Below are positions 2,287 through 7,565 of a DNA stretch of 64,000 bases, in pieces. Positions within the stretch are counted from its first letter, which is position 1, and each line of letters starts with the position of its first letter. The stretch is from Psychrilyobacter atlanticus DSM 19335 (GTDB lineage Bacteria; Fusobacteriota; Fusobacteriia; Fusobacteriales; Fusobacteriaceae). The notes below the pieces were generated by a model, which saw only the letters and a program-made list of their open reading frames with translations, ran no database searches and was not told where the DNA came from. The position numbers and the translations under genes were made by a program. Location of the stretch: contig NZ_KE384548.1 of the NCBI RefSeq assembly GCF_000426625.1, positions 868,001-932,000 of the forward strand. The letters are read 5' to 3'.

Positions 2287-2844
2287 ATGGAATGTGCATT
2301 ATGTCAAAATAAAATATGTCTTAAAGGTATAGAGTGTGATAAATTTTATGGAATAAATTCAAAAACAGAAAATATAAAACATTATTTAGAATCTGATTTA
2401 GATACTAGAATTTTAAATACAAGTTCTAAAATATCTAAAAATATTTCAAGAATTGAAGAAGTTTCAAGTTATATTGATTTTATGGGGATAAAAGTTGTAG
2501 GTATAGGATTTTGTAAGGGTCTTCAAAAAGAAGGAGAAATATTACATAATTATCTTACTAATAAGGGTGTAGAGTGCCATTCAGTTATTTGTGGACATGC
2601 TAGTATCGATAATGAAGATTTAAATTTAAGAAAAAAAAATAAAGATGTCTTTGAGGTTAGTTGTAATCCATATGGACAAGCAACTATTATGAATAATTTA
2701 AAAACAGAATTAAATATTGCTCTAGGATTTTGTATTGGTCATGATATTCTATTTTCTAAGTATTCAGAAGTACCTGTAACAACTTTAGTTGTTAAAGATA
2801 GAGTCCACAGACATTGTCCTACAATTGGTTTTATGAGTAAATAA
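2287..2844 (+). CDS. DUF1847 cysteine-rich protein
   Basis: A 185-residue cytoplasmic protein of the DUF1847 family. It opens with a CALCQNKIC cysteine pair region and carries the family landmarks GIGFCKGL (about 75), SVICGH, a CNPYGQA stretch near 140 and GFCIGHDILFSKYS near 157, followed by VVKDRV. Function is unknown; the many conserved cysteines suggest metal or Fe-S binding. The start is ATG 2287, directly after TAGGAGGAATAA, rather than the in-frame ATG 30 bases earlier, which lacks a ribosome binding site. It diverges from the hcp operon and may share its regulation. A strong terminator follows, so it is monocistronic. Confidence 0.85.
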   Translation: MECALCQNKICLKGIECDKFYGINSKTENIKHYLESDLDTRILNTSSKISKNISRIEEVSSYIDFMGIKVVGIGFCKGLQKEGEILHNYLTNKGVECHSVICGHASIDNEDLNLRKKNKDVFEVSCNPYGQATIMNNLKTELNIALGFCIGHDILFSKYSEVPVTTLVVKDRVHRHCPTIGFMSK

Positions 2845-3110: not shown

Positions 3111-3251
3111 GTGTACGCAACAGGTGAAAAACCAGGTGAAGGAACTTATATTTGTACTATGTGTTCTCTAGAGATAGTAATAGAGAGTAACAGTGATGAA
3201 TTACCGAGATGTCCAGACTGTAGTGCTACTTTCTACAATGAAGTGATTTAA
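3111..3251 (+). CDS. Small zinc-ribbon protein, 46 aa
   Basis: A 46-residue protein starting at GTG. It has the TGEKPGEGTY N-terminus and paired CxxC motifs (C15-x2-C18 and C34-x2-C37) of the small zinc ribbon-containing protein family, related in fold to rubredoxin. The DELPRCP stretch before the second pair is also typical. It probably binds Zn; a nucleic-acid or protein-binding role is a guess. The GTG is chosen because the conserved start begins there and a GAGG element lies 6 bases upstream. It is alone between its own promoter and terminator. It is too short for standard ORF-length filters but clearly protein coding. Confidence 0.85.
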   Translation: MYATGEKPGEGTYICTMCSLEIVIESNSDELPRCPDCSATFYNEVI

Positions 3252-3277: not shown

Positions 3278-3342
3278 TTACTCAAAATTAAATGTTTGAT
3301 AACTATGATATACTTTATCTAATGAGAATTGGAGGTGTTAAC

Positions 3343-3807
3343 TTGAAAGGAAGAATATATTTAGAGCATGATTTTCTCGGTATCATTGAGATCACCGAGG
3401 AAACTGATGGAATAAGCGGTATTCATTTTTTAGATAAAAAAAAGAATGAGGAGATACCCAGCCCTGAAGTGATTAAGTGTAAAAAAGAATTAGAAGAATA
3501 TTTTGAAAAGAAAAGGACTAAATTTACCATAAACATTGATTTTAAAGGCGGTACAGAATTTCAAAGGGCATGCTGGAAAGCTATGTATAAGATCCCCTAT
3601 GGAAAAACTATCTCTTATTCAGAAGAGGCTCAGTCTATCAATAACCCTAAAGCTGTGAGGGCTGTAGGAGGTGCAAATGGAAAGAATCCAATTTCAATCA
3701 TAGTTCCCTGACATAGAGTCATAGGTAAGTCGGGTAAACTTACAGGATTTGCATCTGGTATTTGGAGGAAAGAATACCTCCTAAAATTAGAAAATGAAAA
3801 TGAATAA
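3343..3807 (+). CDS. ogt: Methylated-DNA--protein alkyltransferase with in-frame TGA (candidate selenoprotein)
   Basis: O6-alkylguanine-DNA alkyltransferase, 154 residues if the TGA at 3709-3711 is read as selenocysteine (residue 123). The C-terminal domain is textbook: FQRACWKAMYKIPYGKTISY, then AVRAVGGANGKNP, then I-I-V-P-[TGA]-H-R-V-I-G and, after it, GKLTGFASGIWRKEYLLKLE. The invariant PCHR cysteine is the suicide alkyl acceptor, and TGA sits exactly there. The reading frame continues intact for 31 codons of conserved family sequence to TAA at 3805. A hairpin with a G-rich loop follows the TGA (see SECIS entry). Start TTG 3343 is chosen because GGAGGT lies 6 bases upstream and the protein then begins like other Ogt proteins. 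The alternative is a nonsense mutation at the catalytic codon, but no other decay is visible. Confidence 0.85.
3709..3746 (+). other. Candidate bacterial SECIS element with UGA codon
   Basis: The TGA at 3709-3711 is followed by GTAAGT (3725-3730), a 7-base loop CGGGTAA (3731-3737), and ACTTAC (3738-3743): a perfect 6-base stem. The loop carries GGG near its 5' side and lies about 20 bases after the UGA. Bacterial SECIS elements are hairpins immediately downstream of the UGA, inside the coding region, with a conserved G in the 5' part of the apical loop at this sort of distance. The stem is short, so binding by SelB is inferred from position and loop. Confidence 0.65.
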
Positions 3808-3838: not shown

Positions 3839-3845
3839 ATATAAA

Positions 3846-3880
3846 AAAGAGGCTTGACCCATTGGATCAGCCTCTTTTCA
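3846..3880. terminator. Bidirectional terminator between ogt and ABC ATPase gene
   Basis: AAAGAGGCT (3846-3854) pairs with AGCCTCTTT (3869-3877), with an A-run before and T-run after, so it can stop transcription from both sides. The gene at 3887 (- strand) ends right beside it. Confidence 0.88.
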
Positions 3881-6183: not shown

Positions 6184-6212
6184 TTGCACTAACTCAAAAA
6201 AAATGATACTAT
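6184..6212 (+). promoter_or_regulatory. Sigma-70 promoter of first satP gene
   Basis: TTGCAC at 6184-6189, 17-base spacer, TACTAT at 6207-6212, about 40 bases before the start codon. Good match in sequence and spacing. Confidence 0.75.
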
Positions 6213-6250
6213 ACCCTGTAAAATCATTATATTTAGGAGGAAAAATTACA

Positions 6251-6811
6251 ATGGAAAGATCAATTAAAGATACGACTGCCAATCCAGCACCTTTAGGGCT
6301 TTTAGGATTTGGAACAACAACTTTATTATTAAATTTACACAATGCAGGTTTATTTGGACTAAATGACATGATCTTAATGATGGGACTTTTTTACGGAGGA
6401 TTTGCACAAATAATTGCAGGTATCCAAGAAAATAAAAAAGGTAACACATTCGGAGCTACAGCATTTACTTCTTATGGAGCTTTCTGGTGGACATTAGTTG
6501 GAATTTGGGTATTAAACAAAGCTGAATACTTAGCTGCTGACAGTGTAGCTCTTGGTTCTTATATGTTTGTATGGGGTCTTGTTACATTTATCTTCTTCAT
6601 CGGTACATTAAATGGAGCTACTATAGGGAAAATAGTTTTCGGTACATTAACTATTTTATTTATATTATTAGGATTCCACTTTGTACTTGAAAGTGCATTA
6701 TTCGGTAAATTAGCTGGATTCGTAGGAATCATATGTGGTTCTTCAGCAATCTATGAAGCAGCAGGATTAATTTTAAACGAAAAATACGGTAAACAAATAT
6801 TACCACTATAA
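6251..6811 (+). CDS. Acetate/succinate transporter, GPR1/FUN34/YaaH (SatP) family, copy 1
   Basis: A 186-residue inner-membrane carrier of the acetate uptake transporter family. The signature NPAPLGLLGFG follows a short cytoplasmic N-terminus, and about six hydrophobic segments follow (for example LILMMGLFYGGFAQIIAGI and MFVWGLVTFIFFIGTLNG), as in E. coli SatP. Family members move acetate and succinate with protons. Start ATG 6251 is chosen over an upstream in-frame ATG because TTTAGGAGG lies 10 bases before it and the paralogue begins at the same point. It is followed by a terminator and then a near-identical second copy at 7005, so the two are separately transcribed products of a tandem duplication. 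Confidence 0.94.
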   Translation: MERSIKDTTANPAPLGLLGFGTTTLLLNLHNAGLFGLNDMILMMGLFYGGFAQIIAGIQENKKGNTFGATAFTSYGAFWWTLVGIWVLNKAEYLAADSVALGSYMFVWGLVTFIFFIGTLNGATIGKIVFGTLTILFILLGFHFVLESALFGKLAGFVGIICGSSAIYEAAGLILNEKYGKQILPL

Positions 6812-7004: not shown

Positions 7005-7565
7005 ATGGAAAGAATAGTTAAAGACACTACGGCTAATCCAGCACCTTTAGGGCTTCTGGGTTTTGGAGCTACAACTTTGTTATTAAATTTACACAACGCA
7101 GGTTTATTTGGACTAAATGACATGATCTTAATGATGGGACTTTTTTACGGAGGGTTTGCACAAATAATCGCAGGTATTCAAGAAAATAAAAAAGGTAATA
7201 CATTTGGAGCAACGGCATTTACTTCTTATGGAGCTTTCTGGTGGACATTAGTCGGAATTTGGATATTGAATAAGGGCGGGTATATGGCAGCTGATCATAT
7301 CGCTTTAGGCTCTTATATGTTTGTATGGGGGATCGTTACGTTAATCTTCTTTATAGGAACTTTAAACGGTCCAACTATCGGTAAAATAGTTTTTGGATCA
7401 GTAACTCTTTTATTCATACTATTAGGTCTGCATTTTTTCTTTGAAAGTGCATTACTTGGAAAAATTGCTGGATATGTAGGAATCATAGCTGGTTTATCTG
7501 CTATGTATGAAGCAGCTGCATTAATTTTAAATGAAAAATATGGTAAACAAATACTCCCATTATAA
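7005..7565 (+). CDS. Acetate/succinate transporter, GPR1/FUN34/YaaH (SatP) family, copy 2
   Basis: A 186-residue paralogue of the gene at 6251, the same length and roughly 85 percent identical by eye; most changes lie between residues 90 and 170, at conservative positions in the last three membrane segments. The NPAPLGLLGFG signature is kept. It has its own promoter and a GGAGG site before ATG. The pair presumably arose by tandem duplication and may give dosage or expression under different conditions. Synonymous differences in the conserved N-terminal half show that the duplication is not very recent. Carbonic anhydrase follows on the same strand after a terminator-like hairpin. Confidence 0.94.
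   Translation: MERIVKDTTANPAPLGLLGFGATTLLLNLHNAGLFGLNDMILMMGLFYGGFAQIIAGIQENKKGNTFGATAFTSYGAFWWTLVGIWILNKGGYMAADHIALGSYMFVWGIVTLIFFIGTLNGPTIGKIVFGSVTLLFILLGLHFFFESALLGKIAGYVGIIAGLSAMYEAAALILNEKYGKQILPL

Follow-up and report, generated by a model that had tools for sequence, protein, structure and literature searches.

The MGMT/Ogt gene at positions 3343..3807 (+ strand) of the window, by which we mean the whole 64,000-nucleotide stretch of Psychrilyobacter atlanticus DSM 19335 analysed here, is very probably, judged from its sequence and from that of its relatives, a functional gene that encodes the cell's single O6-alkylguanine-DNA alkyltransferase as a selenoprotein, in which selenocysteine (Sec) would replace the acceptor cysteine. 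The fusobacterial case, its breadth, the local switch between Cys and Sec with gain of a hairpin, and the standing of the Sec form as the genome's sole PF01035 gene are new. The chemistry is unusual, but it is not a new category, since the family is already known as a predicted selenoprotein.

Gene structure and domain assignment

The frame runs from a TTG start to a TAA stop over 154 codons plus the stop and contains a single in-frame TGA at codon 123 (3709..3711, +), in the context ...NPISIIVP-TGA-HRVIGKSGKLTGF..., where frame, alignment and homologues predict Sec as the alkyl acceptor, that is, at the Cys of PCHR. The initial annotation had placed this lone TGA exactly on the PCHR acceptor, had counted 122 codons before it and 31 after it, and had seen no other lesion in the frame, and it was right in each respect. 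When the read-through protein of 154 residues is aligned with solved Ogt/Ada proteins, there is no gap near the acceptor and the TGA sits on their acceptor Cys. The same protein matches, above the respective cut-offs, the DNA-binding and active-site domain PF01035 (2e-33), the N-terminal ribonuclease-like domain PF02870 (5e-7) and TIGR00589 (ogt; 117 bits, cut-off 46), and the assignment draws on these models and on dN/dS. It would carry the acceptor residue that defines an MGMT only if the UGA is decoded as Sec.

Further elements of the locus can be read from the sequence. A ribosome binding site, GGAGGTG (3331..3337, +), lies 5 nt upstream of the TTG start, and the homologues of Propionigenium maris and of genome G058 have an ATG start at the position that matches this TTG. 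The Asn codon equivalent to N137 of human AGT (3685..3687, +) lies 8 codons upstream of the Sec codon and forms part of an NP-x5-P-U-HR motif, while 3' of the gene a terminator-like inverted repeat, AAAAGAGGCT...AGCCTCTTTT (3845..3878, +), was identified by eye. No convincing case was found among the other read-through frames of the 64-kb window.

Selenocysteine decoding machinery

All four components expected alongside a bacterial selenoprotein gene, namely SelA, SelB, SelD and tRNA-Sec, are present in the genome, as the initial annotation had proposed to verify. The selD-selA-selB cluster lies at C3:149186-153528 (392, 591 and 370 bits, respectively), and a tRNA-Sec with the anticodon TCA (UCA) is encoded at C3:107097. 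The first gene of the cluster, selD (L058:1187-2209, corresponding to C3:149186-150208), is itself UGA-coded near its N-terminus (CSGGGU-TSKIGPG), at a position which we take to be the one usually occupied by the catalytic Cys, and thereby provides an internal check that the organism reads UGA as Sec. RF2 was also found in the genome, so UGA is still a stop codon elsewhere, and 2 of the 53 long frames of the window end in TGA. As a separate observation, P. maris (G054) has two tRNA-Sec genes (C7:46259-46348 and 75537-75626), about 29 kb apart.

These findings bear on a reading in which UGA would encode Trp and the gene an alkyltransferase-like protein (ATL, PWHR) that binds O6-alkylguanine without repairing it. 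Trp occupies the acceptor position in ATL proteins, and UGA is a Trp codon in code 4, both of which would fit this reading. The presence of RF2, the frames ending in TGA, and the combination of tRNA-Sec(TCA) with selDAB all speak against a reassigned code, however, and the N-terminal MGMT domain PF02870 is present in a protein whose nearest relatives are Cys-containing MGMTs and not ATLs. The probability of this reading is practically negligible.

Conservation of the TGA codon and selection in relatives

A survey of 98 genomes of the phylum, 82 of them with PF01035 matches, showed exactly one TGA in each of six Psychrilyobacter genes and in the gene of P. maris DSM 9537, and in all seven it is the codon of the PCHR acceptor. 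Among the matches listed for these 98 genomes, the remaining PF01035 genes contain no stops. Two more Psychrilyobacter genomes, with a completeness of 62% and 76%, had no PF01035 match. Across the seven species dN is far below dS both upstream and downstream of the TGA (G000 against G057, dN/dS: 0.164/1.30 upstream, 0.047/0.42 downstream), and synonymous change upstream of it is saturated in comparisons with P. maris.

The gene could, in principle, be a pseudogene, an MGMT/Ogt gene recently inactivated by a nonsense mutation from TGY to TGA. In favour, this change needs only a single base, and the gene has a TTG start codon in this genome. Against inactivation, the same TGA recurs with no further lesion in seven species that have diverged almost to saturation, or past it, at synonymous sites; dN stays far below dS downstream of the codon; and the Sec machinery is complete and the hairpin described below conserved. 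Neither relaxed selection nor further lesions, as expected of a pseudogene, were found in the Psychrilyobacter and P. maris genes, and the relatives refute the idea unless the gene was lost at this one codon in seven separate recent events, one in each species. A pseudogene is therefore extremely improbable, which agrees with the view of the initial annotation that a random nonsense mutation was unlikely; the close relatives, which it had suggested inspecting for TGT or TGC codons or for decay, all carry TGA and show no decay.

A conserved bSECIS-type hairpin

A bSECIS-type hairpin, which the initial annotation had proposed to look for, was found by hairpin search at 3725..3743 (+) and is conserved. 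Its 6 bp stem (GUAAGU, 3725-3730, paired with ACUUAC, 3738-3743) encloses a 7 nt loop (CGGGUAA, 3731-3737) that begins with CG and starts 19 nt after the UGA. Bacterial SECIS elements are modelled with a stem of 4-16 bp, a loop of 3-9 nt, a G within the first two loop positions and a distance of 16-37 nt from the UGA (PMC13188914), and the hairpin falls within all of these limits. For the energy the limit is -7.5 kcal/mol or lower. By itself the conserved hairpin is weak (-2.9 kcal/mol); a 50-nt fold in which it is enforced reaches -7.5 kcal/mol in the window and ranges from -5.1 to -14.3 over the seven species, so that not every species attains the limit, and the window sequence has an alternative predicted fold of lower energy than the one with the enforced hairpin. 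An Rfam search across the gene gave no match close to the gathering score.

The conservation of the element is most visible at the nucleotide level. The stem is invariant in all seven species although synonymous sites elsewhere vary freely: among codons for identical amino acids in the seven genes, 2 of 7 vary within the hairpin versus 55 of 61 elsewhere (Fisher p 8e-4), and the changes in these two codons spare the stem, lying in its loop and directly beside it. When the equivalent 19 nt of nine fusobacterial Cys-form genes were folded, eight formed no structure and one gave a fold of -0.2 kcal/mol. Where the Cys gene L056 encodes GKNGKLTG as GGG AAA AAT GGG AAA CTG ACA GGC, the Sec genes encode GKSGKLTG as GGT AAG TCG GGT AAA CTT ACA GGA; as read from these codons, the stem is built by a single amino acid substitution, of N by S, together with several synonymous changes. 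Compared with synonymously reshuffled sequences, the hairpin does not stand out when only the fusobacteria are considered (p 0.07-0.12). Among the non-fusobacterial Sec genes it does at p<=0.05 in 49 of 81, versus 1 of 44 Cys genes, 23 of which were GC-matched.

Breadth and origin of the Sec forms

Scanning about 85,000 genomes for the motif NPx5P-TGA-HR[VI] retrieved 86 TGA loci, which represent about eight phyla and some 80 further species, and in all 86 the sequence before and after the TGA is that of an MGMT. By chance, about one hit would be expected in the whole collection, as estimated from the information content of the pattern. Since the motif requires the Asn and a fixed spacing, 86 is a lower bound. 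Going by the titles of their records, the loci belong to Nitrospinota, Nitrospirota, 'Deltaproteobacteria'/Desulfobacterota, Planctomycetota, Bacillota, Chloroflexota, Tectomicrobia and Fusobacteriota, the latter contributing 4 of the 86. The pairs of Cys and Sec (TGA) at the acceptor column, for which the initial annotation had recommended aligning homologues, occur inside the family and in several phyla. In 50 sampled genomes with a TGA locus, tRNA-Sec scored above the gathering score in 45, in some barely, and went undetected in 2, most being MAGs and possibly incomplete. The same scan of a viral collection gave 21 Cys loci and neither TGA nor TAA/TAG at this codon.

In a tree of 129 sequences, which as drawn contains 9 changes between Cys and Sec, the seven fusobacterial Sec genes group together (SH-aLRT 96), beside the fusobacterial Cys genes L056 and L054 (80, 90). 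A Cys form within the Fusobacteriaceae is the most likely ancestor of the fusobacterial Sec form. Horizontal gain was considered as another origin and was set aside in view of these neighbours; in the AU test a single clade of all Sec genes is not rejected (p 0.12). The genome of the nearest Cys-form relative (L056, in genome G042) has a tRNA-Sec, and its gene keeps Cys and has no hairpin. Together with the Psychrilyobacter/Propionigenium Sec clade, L056 forms a close natural pair of Cys and Sec forms in one family that lends itself to comparison.

Proposed mechanism and regulation

In the proposed mechanism, the hairpin at 3725-3743 would direct Sec decoding, with SelD, SelA, SelB and tRNA-Sec decoding the UGA at 3709-3711. 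The selenolate of Sec123 would then attack the O6-alkyl carbon of O6-alkylguanine in one irreversible step, like the Cys thiolate of an ordinary MGMT, and the presumed end state is a Se-alkyl selenoether on a protein that would be used once. The pKa is quoted as 5.5 for the selenolate and 8.6 for Cys (PMC4150793), and a likely advantage of Sec, on chemical reasoning, is that Sec already exists in its ionised, selenolate form at neutral pH. As the gene is the only PF01035 family member of the 3.54 Mb genome, reversal of O6-alkylguanine damage by this route should depend on selenium.

The same circumstance raises the idea that the UGA serves as a regulatory selenium gate, at which most ribosomes stop, so that poor medium would yield mainly a truncated protein of 122 residues and the full-length enzyme would require a plentiful supply of selenium. 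Sec insertion competes with RF2, which this organism possesses, and with a sole PF01035 gene stopping at the UGA removes the acceptor altogether. The 122-residue product, however, ends before the acceptor and before the DNA-binding domain is complete, and nothing points to a role for it. Such a switch, which concerns regulation and is compatible with a functional Sec-containing alkyltransferase, is unlikely.

A more far-reaching proposal is that of a widespread class of suicide selenoenzymes, in which protection from mutation would depend on selenium supply and a thiol or cofactor would reset the Se-alkyl product, so that the enzyme, in contrast to the MGMTs known so far, could be used again. 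As a whole this is quite improbable. Its parts differ: the dependence on selenium is likely to the extent of a roughly even chance, and the resetting of the Se-alkyl product is speculation.

Relation to known systems

A 'Methylated-DNA-protein-cysteine methyltransferase' was listed among predicted selenoprotein families on the basis of one GOS sequence (Zhang & Gladyshev, 2008, PMC2398784), which bears out the mention, in the initial annotation, of metagenomic reports of Sec forms. In later reviews, ABB14497.1 is listed as a Sec member of the MGMT family (PMC9312934; PMC13188914; the family also in PMC7435645). This predicted family shares PF01035 with the present gene, and its Sec was likewise predicted from a bacterial in-frame UGA; its sources list a single metagenomic sequence and a single genome accession and give neither hairpin nor context nor evolution, to which the present case adds the Fusobacteriota, genus-wide conservation, the hairpin, the machinery and the 86 loci. 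The genome accession belongs to Carboxydothermus. In the literature searched, natural Sec-containing MGMTs appeared only as table entries and no dedicated study was found, and a search combining Psychrilyobacter with selenoprotein returned nothing relevant.

The closest experimental counterpart is the engineered U145 form of human AGT, made by UAG suppression, which repairs MNNG damage in E. coli whereas the S145 form does not; in the N137A background the Cys form is dead and the Sec form still active (PMC4150793). It carries Sec at the same acceptor position as the Psychrilyobacter Ogt. Unlike this artificial protein, which tolerates N137A, the natural Sec genes keep the Asn: a motif search of 395 genomes that did not require it found Asn in 5 of 5 true Sec genes, with one further match by chance, and the notion, taken from human AGT, that natural Sec forms might have lost this residue was dropped. 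Ordinary Cys-containing Ogt, Ada and MGMT proteins (PDB 4wxc, 1sfe; fusobacterial L056) share the domains, the PxHR motif and the active-site neighbours, but have TGY where the Sec form has TGA, and the tested fusobacterial Cys genes lack the hairpin.

Among selenoproteins whose function is known, most are redox enzymes that act over many turnovers (PMC2398784). It is odd for so costly a residue to be placed in a protein that spends itself and its selenium on every base it repairs. With some 80 further species in roughly eight phyla, and with the Sec form as the sole gene for this kind of repair in the genus, it can be tested what justifies the cost of Sec, and also whether selenium supply limits alkylation repair.

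Genomic neighbourhood

Just 5' of the MGMT/Ogt gene, a GTG-started frame at 3111-3251 (+) encodes a 46-residue zinc-ribbon protein (DUF1451 zinc-ribbon, PF07295), which adjoins the MGMT/Ogt gene in genomes G055 and G059 as well. Further upstream, a DUF1847 metal-binding-like protein of unknown function with a Cys-rich start is encoded at 2287-2844 (+). Downstream lie two tandem, near-identical genes of the GPR1/FUN34/YaaH family (acetate/succinate transporter-like; 6203-6811 and 7005-7565, +), followed by a carbonic anhydrase gene.
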